A program made the translations under genes and the position numbers. From the NCBI GenBank assembly GCA_033127725.1, contig AP026798.1, positions 558,001 to 622,000 of the forward strand: a stretch of DNA of 64,000 nucleotides. Direction: 5' to 3'. This document shows, in pieces, positions 37,160 through 49,141 of this stretch. The notes beneath the pieces are model-generated. The model was not told the DNA's origin. It did not search any database and saw only the letters and a list, made by a program, of their open reading frames with translations. The DNA is from Bombiscardovia nodaiensis (GTDB lineage Bacteria > Actinomycetota > Actinomycetes > Actinomycetales > Bifidobacteriaceae). Position 1 is the first letter of the stretch, and each line of letters begins with the position of its first letter.

Positions 37160-38149
37160 TTAGCGGGTTGGGGTGAAGGTGAGCGTTGGTATGAGCTGAT
37201 TGTTCTTGGCGATGCCCGAGATGACGACTTCGCACTTGCTCACGCCGTAGTTTTTCATCCCGTCGGCGGCCTGCTGCCCGGCCTGCTCCAGCAGGGGCTC
37301 AGCGGCCCCGCGCTCGATGTCGGGGTAGAGCACGTATATTTCCAGCCTGAGACCCTTGGTTTTGAAGCTGGCGACGCTCTGCTGTCCGCTTGCCAGCAGT
37401 GTGGCTTTCAGATCGCTACGGTGGGTGCCCTCGGCCAGCCAACTTTTGGGCGTTTTATATTCGGAACCCAGGAGCCTGCTGTTGCTGGGCAGGAGGGGGA
37501 GCGTGTCCGAGCCCACCTGGTCAAGGAAGGTGCTGAAGCCGCCCGACAACGTGAATACGGCGGACAGGAGAATGAATATGCAAAAGCGGCGGGTCCAGAC
37601 GGCGAAGGAGTTGAGGTTGGTGCCCAGGGAGCGCCCTCGCCTCCTGACGTGCGTGGACAGGGCAATGCCGATGACGGCCATCGCGAGGCTGAAGGCGCAC
37701 AGGCCAAAGGTGAGCAGGTCGGGGCTATTTTTGAAGGCTGCTAGACCGTTGTCGGCTCTTGGGCTGCCAAAGAGCCAGTCGGGCTGCTGAACAGAGACCG
37801 CCGTATTCAGGCCTTCGGCAGGGATGGCGAGCACCAGGGCAAGGATGATGAGATGGGACAGGTGCTTTCGCTGGCGCTGCGCCAAGAGCTGAGCCAGCTG
37901 AGAGCCCTGGTAGACGAAGGTGATGGGCTCGGCTTGGTCCTCTTCCTCTCGTTCACCGTCCCCAGCATGAGCCCACTGCTGCAAGTTCTCTTGCAGAGCC
38001 TCATGGGCGTTAGCTGGTTGTTCCTCCCACTGACTGCCTGGAGGGTCGGAAAAAGTTATCTGATCGGCCTGGTTGAGAGGAGACTGATAGCTAGCCTGCT
38101 CCTGCCCGTGCCTGGACCGCTTCAAAGAGAATCTGTGCGATGTACCCAT
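37160..38149 (-). CDS. Three-helix membrane protein, paralogue B (unknown family, duplicated module)
   Basis: I do not recognise a family. The ATG at 38149 is chosen because the start (MGTSHRF then SYQSPLNQADQITF) aligns with the paralogue at 39191-40324. Layout: acidic cytoplasmic region to about 105; helix 1 (about 110-130); conserved QQPDWLFGS; helix 2 (about 155-180); VWTRRFC; helix 3 (about 200-220); then an extracellular or cytoplasmic C-terminal domain of about 110 residues beginning LPLLPSNSRLLGSEYK. Shared blocks with the paralogue are strung along the whole length. The DUF1266 gene lies 159 bases upstream on the strand. Function unknown. Confidence 0.8.
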   Translation of the reverse strand: MGTSHRFSLKRSRHGQEQASYQSPLNQADQITFSDPPGSQWEEQPANAHEALQENLQQWAHAGDGEREEEDQAEPITFVYQGSQLAQLLAQRQRKHLSHLIILALVLAIPAEGLNTAVSVQQPDWLFGSPRADNGLAAFKNSPDLLTFGLCAFSLAMAVIGIALSTHVRRRGRSLGTNLNSFAVWTRRFCIFILLSAVFTLSGGFSTFLDQVGSDTLPLLPSNSRLLGSEYKTPKSWLAEGTHRSDLKATLLASGQQSVASFKTKGLRLEIYVLYPDIERGAAEPLLEQAGQQAADGMKNYGVSKCEVVISGIAKNNQLIPTLTFTPTR

Positions 38150-38308
38150 GAGTAAAGTTTCTCTGTCCTGCTCTGGTGCCTTCAAGCTTGCGGTGCGGCA
38201 CGGCGCTCACTCGGTATTGCAGGGAGTTAGAAGCTCACCGAAATAGGAGTGATGCGCCGGACTTGCTCAAGCCTAAAGGCACGTTTGTAAGCAGTATGGC
38301 TGTGCGAG

Positions 38309-39166
38309 CTACTTGAAGGAGATTTTGTTGACCAAGGCCCGTGGGTCGTCTAGGAGCATACTGACCGTGCGGTTCATGGCCTCAGCGCGCGTCTGCGAAG
38401 GGTGCCAAATGATGGCCCCTAAAGCGTAAGCGACACCTACTGACCGCCAGCTGTCGTACGTATCTTGTACTTGCGCTTTGAGCTGGCTGGCGTACTGCTC
38501 GGCCTCCTCCTGCGAGATATAGCCTGCAAGCATCGCTAGGCGGCTGATATTGACGACGCGGACGGCATCCCAAGCCAAGATGTTGTCTACGCTGGGCATG
38601 TCACGCAGGAGCTCGTCGTGCTCCATTGTGGCTTTTCCGTAGCCAATTTCGAGCATCCTAGCTAGCTCGGTCAGCTCAAGGCCCAGCGCGGGCGCCACCT
38701 GCCGAAAGTCCATGCTGTGCTTTTTCTGGAAGTAGGGGAGGGCGGCGTTGGGAATCACATTGACCGCAAACTTCATGAGTCCGCCGGCGTTGTCGAGCGT
38801 CTCGCGGTAGCTGGCAATGAGCTGCATGTGCGGCTGGAACTGCGTCCTGTGCCCGGCAGTAATCAAGCTCTGAGCGGTCTCGCGGAAGCTGTTGGCGTCC
38901 ACAATGTCCCAAGCGTCTTCCAAGTTCATCTTCACGTAGGACTCGTTGCCGGTGGACTCGAAAGCGTTAACATAGTCGCCGGTGTAGGCGCACATAAAGG
39001 AGCCCAAGGCCAGGAGCCACTGCTGGTCGAAGTTGTAGTGCTCGCTGGTGTAGGCTTCGGGCGTGCTCTCGCCGAAGTCGCCCTTGCTGTTCTTGCTGTC
39101 GGGGTAGAAGTTCAGCTGGGCGTTGTCAATCATTGCCTGGCCTAGTTTTTCTGTGAATTCTGCCAT
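38309..39166 (-). CDS. DUF1266 family protein
   Basis: Cytoplasmic protein of 285 residues; no membrane segment. The part from about residue 185 (NILAWDAVRVVNISRLAMLAGYISQEEAE followed by YDSWRSVGVAYALGAIIWHP) is the DUF1266 signature: an Ala-Trp-Asp start, Arg, a Gly-Tyr-Ile turn, and a late Trp-Ser-x-x-Gly-x-Ala-Tyr helix. The N-terminal half is not recognised. It follows the membrane paralogue A by 24 bases and precedes paralogue B. DUF1266 has no established activity, so the role is open. Confidence 0.82.
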   Translation of the reverse strand: MAEFTEKLGQAMIDNAQLNFYPDSKNSKGDFGESTPEAYTSEHYNFDQQWLLALGSFMCAYTGDYVNAFESTGNESYVKMNLEDAWDIVDANSFRETAQSLITAGHRTQFQPHMQLIASYRETLDNAGGLMKFAVNVIPNAALPYFQKKHSMDFRQVAPALGLELTELARMLEIGYGKATMEHDELLRDMPSVDNILAWDAVRVVNISRLAMLAGYISQEEAEQYASQLKAQVQDTYDSWRSVGVAYALGAIIWHPSQTRAEAMNRTVSMLLDDPRALVNKISFK

Positions 39167-39190
39167 TATATTACTTTCTTTTTTCTATCG

Positions 39191-40324
39191 TTATGCCTGA
39201 TTGCTCGGCATAATTTGGTCCTTAGCTACTGTCAAATCTGGTATGGGCTTGCCGTCTTTGGTGTTTCCTTCGACGCTGACCTGGCAATAGCTGATGCCGT
39301 AAGCGCTCATCTCCCGTATAGCTCGCTGCGACACTTGCTCAAGCACGGGTTCAAGCTCCTCGTAGCTGGAGTCGGGCGCGCTCAGGTAGACCGAGAGGCT
39401 GAGTCCGTCGGCCTTGAGACTGGCTATGATGCGATTGTTTGGCGCTTCAAAGGCAGCTTTGAAATCGCGCTCATGGCTGCCTTCTGCCAGCCAGCCCTCT
39501 ACGCTCTTGTACTCGGAGCCCAATACGCGACTATTGGTGGGCAGGAGGGGGAGCGTGCGCTGACCCAGCTGGTTGAAAAAGGCTGGTCCTGCAAACCCCA
39601 TGGTGATTGCGCAAGCTAAGGCGCTCACCGCGCAAAAACGGCGGGTCCAGACGGCACAGGAGCGCAAGGTTGAGCCGTGGGGTTTGCTGCGCCAGGTGAT
39701 GTGGACGGCTAGGAAGAAGCTGACGGTGCTCAGTGCCAAAGAGAGCGCGTAGATGCCGAAAACTAGGAGGTTTGGATGGTGCTGGAAGGCCACTATACCG
39801 TTGGTGCTCAGCGTGCCGAAAAGCCAGCGGGGCTGCTGGACTTTCACCAGCGCGAAGATGACATCTGCTAGGAGTACCAAGGCGATGGTACAGGCTAGGA
39901 GATGGGTCAATTTCGCCTTTTCTCGCCGTTCTAGGAGGATGGTTATAGGTGAACCGGGATAGGCATAGGAAGGTTCGTTGCCCTCGTCGTATTCCTCCTC
40001 GGTGTCCTCCTTGTTGCCCTCGTCGTCCTCAACGCTCTTATGAGAATTATAGGAATCATCGGAGGGCCCTTCTTGGCCCTTGCCTGCCGGAGCGTGTGGT
40101 GCTGTGCAGCTGTCTGTCTCGGCTCTGTTGGTCTGCGACCATCGTTCGGTGGGATTGCTGAGCTGGCTTGCGCCGCCGGGCTTGGACTCGGGCTCCAGTT
40201 CAAGCGAGCTATCATCTGCACTGTCGAATGAAATTTGGTCGTCTTGGTCGAAGGGCGATTGGTAGGAGGGCTGTTTGGAGTCGCGCTTCCAGGGGAATCC
40301 ACCCGAGCTGCTGGTCTTGCCCAT
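39191..40324 (-). CDS. Three-helix membrane protein, paralogue A (unknown family, duplicated module)
   Basis: Paralogue of the 37160-38149 product, 377 residues. A longer, highly acidic cytoplasmic start (about 125 residues, with runs of Glu and Asp) precedes YPGSP. Then come helix 1 (about 140-165), KVQQPRWLFGT, helix 2 (about 185-210), VWTRRFCAV, helix 3 (about 225-245) and a C-terminal domain starting LPLLPTNSRVLGSEYKSVEG. The last part ends with a Ser-Val-Glu-rich strand like the paralogue's. It lies 32 bases after the upstream soluble gene and 24 before the DUF1266 gene, so an operon is likely. Function unknown. Confidence 0.8.
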   Translation of the reverse strand: MGKTSSSGGFPWKRDSKQPSYQSPFDQDDQISFDSADDSSLELEPESKPGGASQLSNPTERWSQTNRAETDSCTAPHAPAGKGQEGPSDDSYNSHKSVEDDEGNKEDTEEEYDEGNEPSYAYPGSPITILLERREKAKLTHLLACTIALVLLADVIFALVKVQQPRWLFGTLSTNGIVAFQHHPNLLVFGIYALSLALSTVSFFLAVHITWRSKPHGSTLRSCAVWTRRFCAVSALACAITMGFAGPAFFNQLGQRTLPLLPTNSRVLGSEYKSVEGWLAEGSHERDFKAAFEAPNNRIIASLKADGLSLSVYLSAPDSSYEELEPVLEQVSQRAIREMSAYGISYCQVSVEGNTKDGKPIPDLTVAKDQIMPSNQA

Positions 40325-40356
40325 AGGGGAGGCCTTTCTTGGCTGGAAACCGCTAC

Positions 40357-41208
40357 TCAGGCGGCCATGCTGCGGTAGGAGCTCAGGGGGTAGCGGACCC
40401 AGGGGCTGCCGGACTTGAAGCCAAGACTCTCGACCGTGTTGCGCAAGAGCTTGGCCCCGCGGCCCTTGTTGATGCCTAGCAGTTGGTCGGTTTTGAGGAA
40501 GTCGAAAGCGTACTGCTCCCAGTCCTGGTAGTTGCGCAGGACCACAGGTGCCAGCTCAGACAGTATCTGCACGGCCTGCTCCTTGGACAGCCCGTTGCAC
40601 TCGGTGCCGGAGACCAGCAGGGAGGCGAAGGCGCTCACCAGCCAAGCGTTCACCCCGTCATCTTCGCGCTCAAAAGTAAAACCGTCCAAGGGCGAGGGCA
40701 TTTCCTCAACGCCATCAAGTGAGGGGAGGGATATGCCAGTTAACGTCAGGAAGTTCTTGCCGATCTTGAGCACGTCTTCATCGCGTTCAATGCCGAAACT
40801 GCGCTCCTGCTGCTGGCGGAGCATGTCCGCTTGCTCTTGGGTCAGCCCGCTATCTTGGCCAAAGCTATAGAGGTGGAAGGGCACAACGGTTGGGTCGGGG
40901 TCTTGGCGGCTGGACTTAAAGAGGGAGAACCAGTCGTAGCAGGCGGAGGCTCTAAAGGGTGCGGCTAGCGAGCAGGCGAAAATCTCTGCCTGGGGGAGAC
41001 CGGCAATGCGTTCCAAGGTCTGTTGAGCTGCCTGCGCTTCTTCCGACTCTGGCTGTCCGGCGTTTGGCTCTGGCCCTGGTTGACTGCTGCTTGCACCCGC
41101 TGCGTTTTCCGTGCTCGCCAGAGCTTTCTGCTCGGCTGCGGAGTCCTCGTCGGCCTCATTCCAGCTGTCGCGGATGAGATCCTTCATCTGTTTGAATATG
41201 GAAGCCAT
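40357..41208 (-). CDS. Soluble alpha-helical protein, partner of membrane paralogue A (unknown, possibly DUF1266-like)
   Basis: A 283-residue cytoplasmic protein with an acidic Ala/Glu/Gln-rich region at about 15-80. The C-terminal part (NAWLVSAFASLLVSGTECNG, then LSKEQAVQILSELAPVVLRN and YQDWEQYAFDF) resembles the helical layout of DUF1266, but I cannot confirm membership. The ATG at 41208 is chosen over a GTG at 41217 because GGGAG sits eight bases before it. It takes the same position relative to membrane paralogue A as the DUF1266 gene does to paralogue B, and follows the XRE regulator by 94 bases. Confidence 0.72.
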   Translation of the reverse strand: MASIFKQMKDLIRDSWNEADEDSAAEQKALASTENAAGASSSQPGPEPNAGQPESEEAQAAQQTLERIAGLPQAEIFACSLAAPFRASACYDWFSLFKSSRQDPDPTVVPFHLYSFGQDSGLTQEQADMLRQQQERSFGIERDEDVLKIGKNFLTLTGISLPSLDGVEEMPSPLDGFTFEREDDGVNAWLVSAFASLLVSGTECNGLSKEQAVQILSELAPVVLRNYQDWEQYAFDFLKTDQLLGINKGRGAKLLRNTVESLGFKSGSPWVRYPLSSYRSMAA

Positions 41209-41302
41209 AGCCTTCACTCCCGGGTTGTAGAGCTACTCTTTCGAGTAAGTTGGACAGCCCCCTGCAGGACAGCTTAACAGAACCCAGCCCCTCTTAAAAA
41301 GT

Positions 41303-41791
41303 TCATTTGTCTAAATTCTTGTGCTGCTTGACCTGGCGCTTGTCAGGCTTCTTCACGCGCTCTTTTCTGTTAGCAAGTTCTTTCTGGACCTGCTCGGCAA
41401 TCTGGTTTTCTTCCCACTCTTGCTGGTCGAGTTCATCGGGGTCGTAAGCCAAAATATTTTCCGGGCGTACGCGAATCGGGCGGGCCGTGAAGTCCTGAGC
41501 CTCGTGCGCGTGGCTCTCTTCCGCTGGTTCAACTACATACGTGACCCGCGCCCCGACTTCCACCGCATAGGCACCGAGCAGCTCTACTAAGTCCTTCCGC
41601 CCAGTCTCAATTTGCGACACGTAAGACTGCGTGACGCCCATACGTTTAGCGAGCTCCGCCTGAGTCAGTCCGCGCTTCTGCCTCATGCCTACGAGCTGGT
41701 TGAGCAATTCGTCGGCCTGCCAATATAAGTCAAGCGACAGTTCTTCGTAGTCGTAGCGTGGGTCAAATTCGCGGGGCTGCTCGTTCGGCAT
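41303..41791 (-). CDS. XRE family regulator, type with conserved YDYEEL start (paralogue 1)
   Basis: DNA-binding protein of 162 residues. From the ATG at 41791 (GGAAGGA upstream) it has YDYEELSLDLYWQADELLNQ, then a canonical XRE helix-turn-helix at about 40-90 (RQKRGLTQAELAKRMGVTQS then YVSQIETGRKDL), a short linker and a charged Lys/Glu/Gln-rich tail. The start block and the helix-turn-helix are shared closely with the regulator at 48632-49141. A dyad (41828-41848) lies just upstream. It is followed on the same strand by the soluble/membrane module, its probable target or partner. Confidence 0.88.
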   Translation of the reverse strand: MPNEQPREFDPRYDYEELSLDLYWQADELLNQLVGMRQKRGLTQAELAKRMGVTQSYVSQIETGRKDLVELLGAYAVEVGARVTYVVEPAEESHAHEAQDFTARPIRVRPENILAYDPDELDQQEWEENQIAEQVQKELANRKERVKKPDKRQVKQHKNLDK

Positions 41792-41827
41792 TGTCAATCC
41801 TTCCGGTGTCGGGATATTAACAATACT

Positions 41828-41848
41828 AATATTACCATTTGTAATATT
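41828..41848 (-). promoter_or_regulatory. Perfect dyad upstream of XRE paralogue 1, probable operator
   Basis: AATATTAC-CATTT-GTAATATT is an exact 8-5-8 inverted repeat in the 62-base gap between the upstream gene stop and the XRE start. The same GTAATATT half-site lies in front of the second XRE gene at 48553-48560, suggesting a shared operator sequence. Confidence 0.7.
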
Positions 41849-41853
41849 CTGCT

Positions 41854-42402
41854 CTACTGTTCGCATGTTTGGGCTCCTTGCCACTGGTCAAAGTGTTGTA
41901 TTGCAATGAATATTTGCGCATTTTGCAAGATACGGATTTCCGCTGGGCTGCCCGACACTGCTTTCTCGTGGGCATGCAATCCCAAGATCAAATTTGGTTC
42001 AGCGCTGGGCTCGCCAACATACTGCCGGATATGCACAGTAGCGCCCCCGCGCAAGTAGGCGTAACGTGCTTCCCATCGAATCTCAAAGAGCGGGCGGTGC
42101 CCTGCACTGGCCAATGGAACGACATCAGACCCGGCTGCGAGCATGCCGAGTGAGGCGTGCTTAATTTTTGCTGCGATAGCCGTTGCTATTCGTATTCTGA
42201 AGGCTTCATAGGAGTAGTAGGTCAACGCTCCGGAGATGAATTTGTCTTTGGCGATGATATTGGCAAAGTGGTTGCCGATTTCCAGCGGGGTTGGAAATTC
42301 ATTTTCACTTTTGATAGGTTGGCCGATCCACTGATATATCGCTGGTTTTCCGCGCGTACACCGGCTGATTCTCGTTTTCCTAGTATCTGAATGTTCTTCC
42401 AT
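41854..42402 (-). CDS. Hypothetical protein upstream of XRE paralogue 1
   Basis: I do not recognise a family. Of 182 residues, the centre is Ala/Ile-rich and likely folded (ALTYYSYEAFRIRIATAIAA, PLFEIRWEARYAYLRGG). There is no signal peptide or membrane helix. GGAAAG precedes the ATG. It ends 62 bases before the XRE gene on the same strand. In the paralogous pair the XRE gene is followed by a SecB-like gene; this protein may play that part here, but no SecB motif is convincing and the order is reversed. Function unknown. Confidence 0.55.
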   Translation of the reverse strand: MEEHSDTRKTRISRCTRGKPAIYQWIGQPIKSENEFPTPLEIGNHFANIIAKDKFISGALTYYSYEAFRIRIATAIAAKIKHASLGMLAAGSDVVPLASAGHRPLFEIRWEARYAYLRGGATVHIRQYVGEPSAEPNLILGLHAHEKAVSGSPAEIRILQNAQIFIAIQHFDQWQGAQTCEQ

Positions 42403-42459
42403 ATCGTGTCACTTTCCGCTCATGAACACTGGCTGTGAGCACAACACTAGAGCGAAAGC

Positions 42460-42516
42460 AAGCGAGCCGGCTACCTGGGCGGCCAATGTGGTCGAACGTG
42501 GGTAGTCGGCTCGCTT
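42460..42516 (-). terminator. Terminator hairpin of the RCC1 surface-protein gene
   Basis: AAGCGAGCCGGCTACC (42460-42475) pairs with GGTAGTCGGCTCGCTT (42501-42516), one mismatch, 25-base loop, about 55 bases past the stop. On the minus strand the stem is followed by GCTTTCGC, a weak U-run. Confidence 0.65.
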
Positions 42517-42569
42517 TGTGGATAAAGGAGTGCGCGACGTTGGGTCGGGCAGGGGAGGGGAGCGAGCCC

Positions 42570-45500
42570 TTAGCTCGCTTGTGGTGCGTGTGCGCGGCGT
42601 CTGCGGTTGCGGCCTGGGTGGCGGCGTTTGCGTGACAAGGTGTAGCCGGCGTAGGCGAGGCCGGTTAGGGCGCTTAGGCCTAGGAGGCTGCTGCCGGTTA
42701 GGCGGTTGAGGGGGATTGAACCGGCATTGGGCAGGTTGAAGACCGTGAAGTAGGTGTAGGAGTTGATGGGGTAGTCGGTTTGCGGTGCGCCTACCAGGCT
42801 CCAGGAGATGGTGACGGTGACTGGTCCGTCCGCGTGGGCTGGGGTGATTACACCCCAGGTGCCGTCGGAGTTGGCGGTCAGGCCGGTTCCATCGGTGGAG
42901 TCGAAGCGAACCTTGCTGATGACCAGCTTGGGGTTCGTGACTCCCACGGCGCTCAGGCTCAGGCTTCCGGCTGATCCGCCAGCGCCATTGCCCAACTGCC
43001 CGTACTGGTTGTCGCCCCAAGCCCAGACCTTGCCGGTGGTGTCTACGGCCAGGCTGTGTTGCCTGCCAACCATGACTTTAGCGTAAGTCACGCCGCCGGG
43101 AGGGGTGATTTGCACGGGGTTGGCCTGGCTGCTCTGGTTGCCGGTTCCCAGCTGCCCGTAGCCGTTCCAGCCCCAAGTGTAGGCTGCGCCGGAGCTGGCG
43201 AGTGCCACCGTGCCGTCTCCTTCTACACTCACCTGGTCGAAGCTGAGACCGCCCGGCAGAGCGGGCGCGACTGGGGTGCTCCGGTTGACGGTGGTGCCGT
43301 CGCCCAGTTGGTTGTCGCCGTTGTAACCCCAGGTGTAGATGCGTCCGCTTGAGCTGGTGCCCAGGCTCCAATCGTTGCTGGCCACCACCTGCTTGAAGCT
43401 CGACACCCCGCCCGGCAGGGAGGTGGCAACCGGGGTAGAACTCTGTCCGCCGACTGCTACGGCTGCAGAGCCCAGTTGCCCGTAGCCGTTCCAACCCCAG
43501 CTATAGGCCCGCCCATCCGAGCCGAGAGCCACCGTGTGGGAGGAGCCCGCGCTGATTTGTGTAAAGCCCGTCACGCCGGTTGGCAGTTTAACCTTGACCG
43601 GTGTGAGCGAGTCGAAAGTCGTGCCCTCGCCCAACTGCCCCATATCGTTGGCACCCCAGGCGTAGACCGCTCCGGTGTCGGTCACGGCCAGGGTGTGCTG
43701 GCGGCCGGGAATAATCTTCGTATACTTGGTCGACCCATCGGGCACCGGCACCAGCACCGGTGTGGATTGGTTCACCGTATTGCCGTTGCCCAGCTGCCCC
43801 TTGCTGTTCCAGCCCCAAGCGTAGAGGGAGCCGTTGGTGGCTAGCGCAAAGGAGTCGTTCGGCCCCGCCACCACCTGCGTAAACTTCATGCCGCCCGGCG
43901 TGCGCACCGCAACCGGCGAAGTGAGGTTGCTGGCCGTTCCGTCGCCCAGTTGCCCGGCATCGTTGCGCCCCCAGGCGTAGACCTTACCGTCGCGCCCTAA
44001 GCCCAGCGAGTGATACCAGCCCGCGCTCACCTGCGTCAGCGTCGCGTCAAAGTTGGGCGGCGTTACAGTAACGTGCGTGCCGCCCGTGCCAAGGCCCCTA
44101 ACCGGTGAAATGGTAAACATGTATGAATTCCACCGGGCTTTGAGTGTGATGTTCCCATTGACTGGCTGAGTAAAGTCATACGCGCTTCCATTGAGTTCCC
44201 AGCCCCCAAACCAGTACCCATTCCACTTAGGATCGTCCGCAGGCCAGGAAGCCTTATGCCCGTTCAGCACATGCTGCTGCCCAGGCGGCGTGACCGGCGC
44301 TCCAGCCATATCAAAGCTCACCGAATACGAAACCTTATACTCATAATCCAGCAAAGCCGTAGTCTGCGCCTGCCCATTCAGCGTCCAAGTAATCCGCACC
44401 TTAATCTTCCCCGGCACCATATGTCGAGGTGCATTAACATGCCACAAATCAGTAGCCGTGTCATGAGTAACCGTCCCCGCGCCAATCCCGTCGAAGCTGA
44501 CACCGGTAATGACAATTATTGGTTTAGCCACTCGCACCGGGCTGAGCCTAGGTATACCTGCCGATCCGTCGCCTATCTGTCCAACACTGTTGTCGCCCCA
44601 GGCATAGGCGTAGCCATCATTGCCAATGCAAATAGAAATCTCTGCAGCTACACTAATTTGTGTAACTTGATAGTCGGGTGGTACGTTTGTTGGAAGATTA
44701 ACTGCCACGGGTATTCTCTGGTCGGTTGTCGTGCCGTTGCCTACCACCCCAGTATAAGGAGCGCTATTCCGCCCCCATCCATAAGCTTGGCTATTAGATC
44801 CTAAAGCTATCATGTGGTTAGCTCCAATACTAATTTCGGTAAAAGCTACAGGTGTTGCTATCGCTATCGGTGTTGAATGGCTGACTGTGGTACCGTCGCC
44901 TAGCTCACCATAAGTATTGCTTCCCCATGTGTAAGTTCGTCCATTATCTCGGCTTATGCCTGCAATCGCTGTATCTCCCCACTGGCATGCGCTAATTGTT
45001 TTGAAATGTATGCCGCCAAGGACTAGCTGTGGTGTAGTTACTGAGGAACTGACATTCCCGGTTCCAAGGCTTGGACTATTCCTACCCCATGCATAAGCGT
45101 TGCCATCGCTGTCCAGGGCGACTGAAAAGTCATTACCTGATCGGATTTTTGTAAAAGATATGCTGGAAGAAATTTTTATTGGTTTTCTGACTGCGCTACC
45201 GACTGATCCAGTGCCAAGCTGGCCAGATGAATTATTTCCCCATGCCCAGAGGTAGCCGTTGCTGTCTATAGCTAATGAGTGAGTACGGCCCGCACTGACG
45301 CTTTTGAAAGTTATGCCTGCTGGCGTATGCACGCGTATCGGAACAGCACTGTTACCGGCTGTTGTTTCGTTGCCGAGTTCGTAGTTACTGTTATCTCCCC
45401 ATGCCCAGAGATTGCCATCTGTATCTATGGCGATATTATGATAAACACCGGCACTAATTGTTTTAAATTTTACATCAGTTGGTATCTGAACGCGGATTGG

Positions 45501-45833
45501 CAGTGCGTTGGTTCTAGCGTAGCTGCCGTTGCCAAGTTGTCCTGCATTATTGTATCCCCACGCCCAAAGTACGCCGTCAGTAGTACTTGCGAGGACATGG
45601 GCCCCTCCTGCTTCAATTGTCTTGAATTTTAATGTCGTCTTAAATGGCGGTGTGATGGCGACGTCGTTGCCGCCTTCTACTGGGCCTTCGGTGGGGGATA
45701 TGGAGAAGCCTTGCGCGTCGGTTATGGGGTCTGCGTGAGCTGCGGTCGGTCGCGCTAAATTAGCGTACCCCCCCCCCAGGACCGTTAGGACTAGGGCCAG
45801 AGCCATAGCCTGCAATGAGCGCCCCATACGCAT
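42570..45833 (-). CDS. Sortase-anchored surface protein with two RCC1 propellers and an InlB-type repeat
   Basis: Cell-wall protein of 1087 residues from the ATG at 45833. A signal peptide (about 1-34, ending AAHA) is followed by seven RCC1 blades (each with HSLA-like and WAWG...GQLG marks). Then comes an InlB B-repeat/Flg_new domain (YSVSFDMAG to LKARW), a second set of seven blades, a small beta domain, the sortase-type motif LPNAG, a hydrophobic helix and a basic tail. RCC1-like repeats and the B-repeat suggest an adhesin or ligand-binding role. A 10-G tract lies in the signal-peptide codons. The first propeller is visibly AT-richer than the second, suggesting a mosaic. Confidence 0.87.
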   Translation of the reverse strand: MRMGRSLQAMALALVLTVLGGGYANLARPTAAHADPITDAQGFSISPTEGPVEGGNDVAITPPFKTTLKFKTIEAGGAHVLASTTDGVLWAWGYNNAGQLGNGSYARTNALPIRVQIPTDVKFKTISAGVYHNIAIDTDGNLWAWGDNSNYELGNETTAGNSAVPIRVHTPAGITFKSVSAGRTHSLAIDSNGYLWAWGNNSSGQLGTGSVGSAVRKPIKISSSISFTKIRSGNDFSVALDSDGNAYAWGRNSPSLGTGNVSSSVTTPQLVLGGIHFKTISACQWGDTAIAGISRDNGRTYTWGSNTYGELGDGTTVSHSTPIAIATPVAFTEISIGANHMIALGSNSQAYGWGRNSAPYTGVVGNGTTTDQRIPVAVNLPTNVPPDYQVTQISVAAEISICIGNDGYAYAWGDNSVGQIGDGSAGIPRLSPVRVAKPIIVITGVSFDGIGAGTVTHDTATDLWHVNAPRHMVPGKIKVRITWTLNGQAQTTALLDYEYKVSYSVSFDMAGAPVTPPGQQHVLNGHKASWPADDPKWNGYWFGGWELNGSAYDFTQPVNGNITLKARWNSYMFTISPVRGLGTGGTHVTVTPPNFDATLTQVSAGWYHSLGLGRDGKVYAWGRNDAGQLGDGTASNLTSPVAVRTPGGMKFTQVVAGPNDSFALATNGSLYAWGWNSKGQLGNGNTVNQSTPVLVPVPDGSTKYTKIIPGRQHTLAVTDTGAVYAWGANDMGQLGEGTTFDSLTPVKVKLPTGVTGFTQISAGSSHTVALGSDGRAYSWGWNGYGQLGSAAVAVGGQSSTPVATSLPGGVSSFKQVVASNDWSLGTSSSGRIYTWGYNGDNQLGDGTTVNRSTPVAPALPGGLSFDQVSVEGDGTVALASSGAAYTWGWNGYGQLGTGNQSSQANPVQITPPGGVTYAKVMVGRQHSLAVDTTGKVWAWGDNQYGQLGNGAGGSAGSLSLSAVGVTNPKLVISKVRFDSTDGTGLTANSDGTWGVITPAHADGPVTVTISWSLVGAPQTDYPINSYTYFTVFNLPNAGSIPLNRLTGSSLLGLSALTGLAYAGYTLSRKRRHPGRNRRRRAHAPQAS
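45768..45777 (-). repeat. Poly-G tract of 10 inside the signal-peptide codons
   Basis: On the minus strand CT-G10-TAC encodes Leu-Gly-Gly-Gly-Tyr near residues 19-23 of the RCC1 surface protein. With 10 G the full frame is open; a one-base change would shift it and stop translation early. Such tracts slip readily during replication, which gives on/off switching. Confidence 0.8.
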
Positions 45834-45993
45834 AATAAACCCCTCCACCAGCGCCGCACCCAGCAGCGCCCATCAATAAAACGAACCTCGGCCCGCGCAA
45901 TTCCCCAACCGCGCCAAGCCCCAACATATCTTCATCTACTCTACCATCCGCAAGCCCTATCCCTAAAATAAGCGTGCAGACCCTCAAACATCA

Positions 45994-48411: not shown

Positions 48412-48552
48412 ATGACTTCGCTGCAAATAGTGGGTTCTTGTCAGTGGTTCTAGGGTTTACTTGCTAGGCAAGTGGGTGGGTTGGTATTTAGAAGTGGTCG
48501 CTGATGTTAGATATGAAATCGTTGACTTTATGGATAGCAATTATTCCTGAGT

Positions 48553-48567
48553 GTAATATTGTTATAC
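48553..48567 (+). promoter_or_regulatory. GTAATATT site upstream of XRE paralogue 2
   Basis: GTAATATTGTTATAC is an imperfect dyad 65 bases before the second XRE start. Its first eight bases equal the half-site of the perfect dyad before XRE paralogue 1 (41841-41848). Shared binding is inferred from this match. Confidence 0.55.
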
Positions 48568-48631
48568 GTGATGACAGCTGGCGGTGCAGCAATGGCTGAA
48601 GAGGGTGTTGACGATAAGCAAGGACGGTGAG

Positions 48632-49141
48632 ATGCCGAACGCTACGTACGATTATGAAGAGCTAGCTTACGATTTGTACGAGGCCAGCAGTGAGCTTCTC
48701 GATGGCCTAGTTGCTATGAGGAAGCAGCGAAGGATGACTCAACAGCAGCTTGCCGAAGAGATGAATGTTAGCCAGTCGTATATCTCAAAAATAGAAAATG
48801 GCCAGGCCGAGCTCACCACGATACTTACCGATTACGCTCTCGAAGTTGGGGTGCGCATAGACTATCATCTCGAACCTGCCGAGAAAAAGCCTAACGGAAA
48901 ACGAAACTTTGTCATCACTCACGCAACCTTTGACGAGCCGGTTTTTGATGCTTCACATGCGGGAGATGTATCTGTGCGCATTATGAAAATCGACGTGACT
49001 ACATCATTGCCCAGCTCAGGCAAGAGCGAGCGAGCCAATACGAGCTCTATCTCTCTAGCCAAGAGCAAGCAAACGGGTTCGTGGAATGTGACGATTAAAG
49101 ACCCTAAGAGAGAAAAGGAATTAGCTGATGCACGTCAATAG
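48632..49141 (+). CDS. XRE family regulator, type with conserved YDYEEL start (paralogue 2)
   Basis: DNA-binding protein of 169 residues. From the ATG at 48632 (AAGGA upstream): YDYEELAYDLYEASSELLDG, a helix-turn-helix RKQRRMTQQQLAEEMNVSQS then YISKIENGQAEL, a linker with HLEPAEKK, and a long C-terminal part rich in Thr/Ser/Lys. Start block and helix-turn-helix match paralogue 1 at 41303-41791. The 3' end overlaps the SecB-like gene by 14 bases. In known toxin-antitoxin-chaperone systems an XRE-type antitoxin with a SecB-like chaperone accompanies a toxin, but no toxin gene is next to it here. Confidence 0.87.
   Translation: MPNATYDYEELAYDLYEASSELLDGLVAMRKQRRMTQQQLAEEMNVSQSYISKIENGQAELTTILTDYALEVGVRIDYHLEPAEKKPNGKRNFVITHATFDEPVFDASHAGDVSVRIMKIDVTTSLPSSGKSERANTSSISLAKSKQTGSWNVTIKDPKREKELADARQ

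Follow-up and report, generated by a model that had tools for sequence, protein, structure and literature searches.

A membrane protein–DUF1266 gene cluster of Bombiscardovia nodaiensis, very probably an accessory and relocating module of the Bifidobacteriaceae

The subject of this study is a cluster of four genes at 37160-41208 of a 64,000-nucleotide stretch of the Bombiscardovia nodaiensis genome (contig AP026798.1, positions 558,001 to 622,000), the whole of which is referred to here as the window. The assembly consists of one chromosome of 2.288 Mb and a second, small contig, and PMC10433979 describes B. nodaiensis in a carpenter-bee study that gave two novel Bifidobacteriaceae isolates, KimH and Kim37-2, with a plasmid in Kim37-2. 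A first reading of the sequence (the original prediction) had proposed four same-strand genes whose products alternate soluble, membrane, soluble, membrane, with intergenic gaps of 32, 24 and 159 bases, and this layout is confirmed by the open reading frames (ORFs) and, for the gaps, by their ATG starts (Table 1). Its statement that no known system matches is also supported, as none of the four proteins hit a family of known anti-phage defence systems in PADLOC-DB 2.0.0 at E≤1. Comparison with related genomes leads us to regard the cluster as very probably an accessory, relocating module of the Bifidobacteriaceae that combines a transmembrane (TM) protein with proteins of the DUF1266 family.

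Table 1. Genes of the cluster and features upstream of it, numbered from the first base of the window
Feature	Position	Strand	Remarks
DUF1266a (DUFa) gene	40357..41208	-	ATG at 41208; GTG 9 bases further upstream possible (ORF 40357-41217)
TM1 gene	39191..40324	-	377 amino acids, three TM helices
DUF1266b (DUFb) gene	38309..39166	-	285 amino acids, all-helical, no predicted TM helix
TM2 gene	37160..38149	-	ATG at 38149; longer ORF from TTG at 38185 (37160-38185); extra TM1 paralogue
XRE regulator gene	41303..41791	-	Likely ATG at 41791 (ORF 41303-41884); HTH_3 match
182-amino-acid ORF	41854..42402	-	Family unassigned; directly upstream of XRE gene
Perfect dyad	41828..41848	.	Probable XRE operator (predicted), not an operator of the module; between stop of 182-amino-acid ORF and likely XRE ATG

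Membership of DUF1266 was defined by the Pfam PF06889 gathering cut-off of 27 bits, which is exceeded by DUFb (101.3 bits), by DUFc, a copy at a second locus (98.5 bits), and by DUFa (29.7 bits); by this curated score all three are members of the family that includes Escherichia coli YnjI. The original prediction had recognized one DUF1266 protein and credited its companion with a similar helical layout; the family assignment stands, its restriction to one of the two does not. The match of DUFa spans profile positions 77-174 only, and its N-terminal LAAPFR and C-terminal SPW motifs align with DUF1266 by eye. Its diverged domain follows a variable N-terminal extension of about 80 residues which opens, again by eye, with an amphipathic-looking helix. 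DUFa is 89% identical between the window genome and Bombiscardovia apis. Its profile and that of DUFb align in the C-terminal half with an E value of 4e-4, yet the HHalign probability is just 35%, and the BLAST similarity of the two proteins is not significant (E 0.077); the nearest paralogue of DUFb is DUFc (41% identity). DUFb is modelled as all-helical (predicted local distance difference test, pLDDT, 86.3; predicted template modelling score, pTM, 0.85), and none of the solved chains with which this helical fold was compared clearly matches it. The DUF1266 structure alignment had 19 rows, 16 of them from 23 loci with DUFb relatives found in a genome scan.

The membrane proteins TM1 and TM2 were correctly predicted to be paralogous along their length, motifs QQPxWLFG, VWTRRFC and LPLLPxNSRxLGSEYK included (36% identity over 354 columns, E 1e-75). 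Each has three hydrophobic helices by hydropathy, and neither has a Pfam match over the cut-off or an NCBIfam or PADLOC family at E≤1. In TM1 an acidic N-terminal tail of about 140 residues, modelled with very low confidence, precedes the three helices and a small C-terminal alpha/beta domain; the model has a pLDDT of 55.8 overall and mostly 65-80 in the blocks of the C-terminal domain, where the order strand-strand-helix-strand-strand is predicted with moderate confidence. Lysine and arginine are concentrated ahead of TM helix 1 and in loop 2 in four of the five TM proteins, the exception being B. apis TM3, in which loop 1 has more of these residues than loop 2, balanced by an equal number of aspartate and glutamate residues. 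Since these loop charges fit an N-in/C-out topology, the C-terminal domain of TM1 is predicted to be extracytoplasmic. Near the N-terminus of TM1 and TM2 lies a short motif, SYQSP..Q.DQI.F, with a loose look-alike in a weakly DivIVA-like B. apis protein (locus L015, 2857-3432), which may be due to chance.

The cluster had been interpreted as a tandem duplication of a soluble-plus-membrane pair, and this we reject because such an event predicts like divergence of the soluble and the membrane copies, whereas the former are far more diverged than the latter and the B. apis locus has three genes. There the order is XRE, DUFa, TM1, DUFb and then an SDR gene, with no fourth module gene and no trace of TM2 in the 132-base DUFb-SDR gap, so that TM2 is present in the window genome only. 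In a six-row tree TM2 branches outside the TM1 sequences of the window genome and B. apis with a support of 87/82, which is under the tool's 95/80 mark, and a five-row tree did not settle its position; TM2 may be an old copy that B. apis has lost, or one that evolves fast. Each Bombiscardovia genome has a second locus, at 2.13 Mb in the window genome and at 0.63 Mb in B. apis, where TM3 is followed by DUFc. TM1/TM2 and TM3 form two groups (support 100/100), and DUFb and DUFc cluster together (98/95) in a second DUFb tree made without the long-branch rows L034, L045 and L050; in a first tree of 20 rows, with the L050 and L045 rows cut N-terminally, the DUFb/DUFc group did not resolve. Eight of 18 Variovorax loci were taken into the DUFb trees. 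Both the TM and the DUF1266 trees part the first-locus type from the second-locus type. Because the DUFb/DUFc group and the split of TM1/TM2 from TM3 agree, the TM and DUF1266b/c genes were most likely duplicated as a pair. In genome G461, from another genus of Bifidobacteriaceae, an intact DUFa (50% identity) precedes a TM gene that has lost its middle part and then the remains of a DUF1266c gene, interrupted by stop codons; the set is flanked by genes which we take to be priA and a cyclopropane synthase gene. Both the window and B. apis have DUFa-TM-DUFb, which together with this DUFa/deleted TM/DUFc remnant arrangement points to an ancestral order of three genes, DUF1266a, three-helix TM protein and DUF1266b, to which the window adds one TM paralogue. 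TM3 of the window genome begins with residues that resemble the start of DUFa (E 2e-5 against G461 DUFa and 0.001 against window DUFa, both in tiny databases), which is suggestive, though not proof, of the start of a deleted DUFa having become fused to TM3.

The two Bombiscardovia species carry their second copies at sites that do not match. TM3-DUFc of the window genome is part of a 6.2-kb stretch, which also encodes a leucine-rich-repeat protein and contains an HTH_17 gene, between a gene for a 206-residue protein and recR (named by eye), and in B. apis the flanks of this stretch are 0.5 kb apart. In B. apis TM3, DUFc and a DUF3800 gene are found between a LacI-type gene and glyS (also named by eye), an interval which in the window genome holds two small genes, presumably HigB- and HigA-like, and whose flanks are about 180 bases apart in G461; this interval has the look of an insertion hotspot (L096, 5613-6174, in the window genome; L016, 9187-11708, in B. 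apis; L098 in G461). Variability of the locus, for which a survey had been suggested, is thus borne out between species, both in these second copies and in the absence of TM2 from B. apis. No transposase or integrase was recognized in the ORFs adjoining the copies in Bombiscardovia or G461. Between the window genome and B. apis the ratio of non-synonymous to synonymous divergence (dN/dS) is 0.15 for DUFa, 0.21 for TM1, 0.11 for DUFb, 0.15 for DUFc and 0.40 for TM3, against 0.09 for SDR and 0.30 for XRE among the neighbours, the values for TM1, TM3 and DUFc being rough since their dS exceeds 1. By these ratios the intact copies are under purifying selection.

Coupling of the two kinds of gene, a further element of the original prediction, holds within Bombiscardovia: a TM gene lies immediately upstream of DUF1266b/c in 4/4 intact loci, with gaps of 22-92 bases, and a DUF1266 gene or remnant adjoins all six known TM genes, one of them decayed. 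Homologues lacking their partner in most genomes had been named as evidence against such a unit, and these occur on one side only, as no TM relative was found beside any of 39 DUF1266 genes (38 loci) outside the Bifidobacteriaceae, whereas each of the known TM genes comes with DUF1266. For eight of the 39 a gene on the same strand and at most 250 bases away encodes one or more predicted TM helices, the two E. coli djl genes being among these neighbours, in a survey whose ORF calling is rough in GC-rich loci and which was made without L044, L047/L073 (an interrupted Devosia gene), L048, L065 and L067. When the five TM proteins were compared by tblastn with 44 DUF1266 loci (the 38 surveyed and the six left out of the survey) there were two matches at E≤1, while a reversed-sequence control gave nothing better than E 0.16 and DUF1266 queries recovered 42 of the 44 loci. 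The better match (E 6e-4; L034, 3206-3463) overlaps an FtsH-like gene (by eye) on the opposite strand, at a distance of 1.2 kb from the DUF1266 gene; it probably reflects chance.

The distribution of the module is narrow. With the window genome itself counted, the TM family is found in 3/189 Bifidobacteriaceae genomes and DUFa in 4/189, the latter including one marginal match; marginal matches set aside were in G006 (DUFa search, E 3.4e-4) and G040 (E 3.8e-4). DUF1266 as defined by Pfam, counted in the same way, is present in 2/189 Bifidobacteriaceae, 3/59 close relatives and 8/396 actinobacterial genomes. Among 5.8 billion proteins, searched with one sequence and with a profile that scored the 8000 candidates with most words in common, matches of the TM family were confined to Bombiscardovia members, and the sole named match of TM1 in the protein database, outside the window, was the B. 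apis KIMH protein (64%). The TM family was not found in plasmids or, with one protein as query, in viral contigs, and DUFa was not found in plasmids. DUFb relatives were found in at least 23 loci, comprising Frischella japonica (39%), two Lactobacillaceae metagenome-assembled genomes (36 and 37%), 18 Variovorax loci and Devosia/Rhizobiales, in a scan made with four DUF1266 queries and exact patterns, which is not exhaustive; an earlier scan with six queries had found nothing. The relatives in Frischella, Lactobacillaceae, Variovorax and Devosia have no TM partner. In an unrooted tree those of Frischella and Lactobacillaceae group together, nearest to Bombiscardovia. Frischella is a bee-gut genus, and these relatives, the closest to DUFb found outside Bombiscardovia (L051, 5959-6738; L052 and L053, 5983-6762), are possibly a sign of bee-gut gene exchange.

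How such a module might work is a more tentative matter, and the mechanism that we put forward, a three-helix scaffold with docked DUF1266 proteins that serves self-protection in conflict, is one we hold to be somewhat likelier wrong than right. The TM protein, if N-in/C-out, would expose a small alpha/beta domain outside the cytoplasm and keep a long acidic tail in the cytosol; the cytosolic DUF1266 proteins would dock on this tail or on the cytosolic loop; and the complex would couple some extracellular or membrane-associated factor to DUF1266 action in the cytosol. Our guess is that the module serves the self-protection of the bacterium in microbe-microbe conflict in the bee gut, a role of the immunity or defence type. 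Three points prompt this guess: the module behaves as accessory cargo, one of its sites otherwise carries a toxin-antitoxin-like pair, and DUF1266 elsewhere occurs occasionally in toxin or immunity neighbourhoods. In one actinobacterial genome a DUF1266 gene lies 0.8 kb from an RHS protein ending in a Col-Pyo DNase domain (L037, 109-5735), in another a DUF1266 gene is near an RHS protein ending in Ntox28, with CdiI_3 (L040, 5026-9918), and a plasmid of Bacteroides finegoldii has a tandem of two DUF1266 genes that is clustered with genes for Imm5, PoNe immunity and ankyrin repeats (L050, 5641-7456). The Bombiscardovia cluster shares DUF1266 with these polymorphic-toxin and immunity neighbourhoods, where it lies near toxin or immunity genes and, on the Bacteroides plasmid, in tandem; the cluster differs in that no recognized toxin gene is beside the modules, and DUF1266 as an immunity protein is putative everywhere.

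A number of observations weigh against a conflict module that moves. A toxin or immunity context was seen in just three of 24 DUF1266 regions outside Bombiscardovia and Variovorax, judged by eye from their annotation with ten proteins scanned, and the others look ordinary; in the Ntox28 case CdiI_3 is likelier than DUF1266 to be the cognate immunity protein, and in the DNase case the intervening 0.8 kb sets the DUF1266 gene apart from the toxin. Both Bombiscardovia genomes have the first locus in the same position, which means that it has not relocated since the species split. Beside the Bombiscardovia modules no toxin, phage or mobility gene was recognized (ORFs examined by eye, some with Pfam) save HTH_17 in the recR-side island. 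The recognized neighbours of the four-gene cluster in a Pfam scan are RCC1, XRE and SDR, and no toxin is recognizable directly upstream of the putative immunity gene, though the 182-amino-acid ORF, which matches no family, may encode one. No relative of DUFb was found in phages or viral contigs, and the low confidence of the TM model counts on the same side.

Were the module to stand for a new class of membrane-anchored self-protection system, in which a lineage-specific three-helix protein exposes an extracytoplasmic sensor or receptor domain and docks one or two DUF1266 proteins, the whole relocating in bees as cassette cargo from one chromosomal site to another, then DUF1266, which occurs in several phyla, would represent a fold used widely in immunity or in the surveillance of membranes; this broader claim we consider doubtful. 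Joint duplication and relocation tie DUF1266 here to a dedicated membrane protein; in Enterobacterales the tie is to J-domain proteins, membrane-anchored in E. coli. From this follows the testable statement that DUF1266 acts at the membrane via a partner, for which the loci offer minimal pairs, and for the gut community of carpenter bees, which has been little studied, the module would be an additional envelope system of the accessory kind. In the literature under Creative Commons licences in PubMed Central (PMC) we found no functional study of DUF1266/PF06889; three papers name DUF1266, in table entries, and none names PF06889.

The main rival explanation, which we judge unlikely though it comes closest to competing, is that the module is a membrane-tethered chaperone or quality-control adaptor in which DUF1266 partners membrane proteins that survey the cytosolic parts of membrane or envelope proteins, as has been proposed for HscC with DjlB and DjlC. 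E. coli K-12 has at least three DUF1266 genes, of which ynjI encodes a single chain that joins hydrophobic segments at the N-terminus to the domain (by eye), and ybeR and ybeU overlap djlB and djlC, respectively, by 4 bases; in Erwinia a DUF1266 gene likewise overlaps a J-domain gene. A table in a Dickeya paper places a DnaJ/DUF805 protein beside a DUF1266 protein, and PMC8215388 has the tail-anchored DjlC inserted in the plasma membrane and HscC suggested to act there. The ybeR-djlB/ybeU-djlC arrangement is like that of the window in having a soluble DUF1266 gene beside a same-strand membrane-protein gene, in two copies at one locus. The likeness ends there, as in E. coli the soluble gene comes first and overlaps the membrane gene, whose product has a J domain and one tail anchor, whereas the Bombiscardovia TM proteins have no DnaJ match at E≤1. 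Profile similarity of the TM family to DjlB/DjlC was rejected at an HHalign probability of 0.1%, and the accessory, relocating spread of the module is unlike housekeeping quality control.

A reading which we think improbable, more so than the chaperone adaptor, makes the cluster part of an XRE-controlled defence or toxin-antitoxin-like operon in which the XRE gene and the 182-amino-acid ORF regulate, and belong with, the four genes downstream. The original prediction had placed an XRE gene with its own dyad just upstream on the same strand, and both are there: the protein matches HTH_3 (E 3e-11, Pfam), and the dyad, AATATTAC-N5-GTAATATT, is perfect, is the sole perfect match in the genome, has one mismatch in B. 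apis and looks autoregulatory. The gene is separated from DUFa by 94 bases, and the gene order is kept in B. apis. The XRE protein also matches 16 PADLOC models at E≤1 through its HTH part (best HTH_VI, 5.7e-11) and antitoxin-type NCBIfam models below the cut-off, though these are generic HTH matches, and among plasmids it has partial HTH-type matches only. The 182-amino-acid ORF has no Pfam, NCBIfam or PADLOC match and was not found in plasmids.

A role of XRE as regulator of the module is nevertheless not evident, neither the identity profile nor the operator search supporting it. Measured against B. apis in 250-base steps, identity reaches 88-99% in the part of the RCC1 gene that aligns (about 44519-45395 does not), in the 182-amino-acid ORF (94% identical) and in the 5' part of XRE. 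It is 82-88% across DUFa, 70-74% across most of TM1, 79-85% across DUFb and 70-87% across the flanks. The edge of the block falls inside the XRE gene, which is 91-95% identical over 41500-42000 and 80% over 41250-41500, its 3' end. This ending of the block inside XRE, and the intermediate dS of DUFa, can be counted for the operon. The dS values are 0.25 for the 182-amino-acid ORF, 0.23 for XRE, 0.46 for DUFa, 1.26 for TM1 and 0.79 for DUFb, and because that of XRE matches the ORF rather than DUFa or TM1 we take XRE to be probably part of the neighbouring unit rather than of the module; it seems to go with a separately and recently exchanged block. No operator copy with two or fewer mismatches exists at the module genes in the genome, the one two-mismatch copy (48540-48560) lying just upstream of a second XRE gene (48584-49141), and no XRE gene was seen beside the second-locus modules or in G461. 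The block itself, at 41500-45848 (the alignable part of the RCC1-repeat surface-type protein, the 182-amino-acid ORF and most of XRE), suggests recent interspecies exchange.

It is more improbable still that these genes, selfish or orphan, are decaying and serve no function at present, an idea that can draw on the decay in G461, the absence of TM2 from B. apis and the dN/dS of TM3, and that is opposed by the ratios of 0.11-0.21 for DUFa, TM1 and DUFb and by the intact frames of the first locus in both species. An envelope stress anchor like AmaP/Asp23, with the TM protein holding an alkaline-shock-type protein, is highly improbable and was rejected for its missing Asp23 partner and want of profile support: the automatic UniRef name of the B. 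apis orthologue starts ‘Alkaline shock response membrane a...’ and the small alpha/beta domain with its strand-strand-helix-strand-strand order would suit, but AmaP has two TM helices and the TM proteins three with the C-terminal domain predicted outside, PF03780 has no match in the genome while 5/14 control genomes match, neither TM protein has an NCBIfam match at E≤1 (in a library that, we assume, includes an AmaP model) or a Pfam match naming AmaP or Asp23, and the partner genes are DUF1266.

Three observations concern the DUF1266 family at large. Two DUF1266 genes or domains adjoin each other in L036, L049 and L050. On a plasmid of Devosia sp. A8/3-2 the annotation splits the DUF1266 gene in two, so that the gene is probably interrupted (L047, 5995-6793; L073). 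In actinobacterial genome G352 (L042, 4882-6567) a Ser/Thr protein kinase and a C-terminal DUF1266 domain are joined in one chain.

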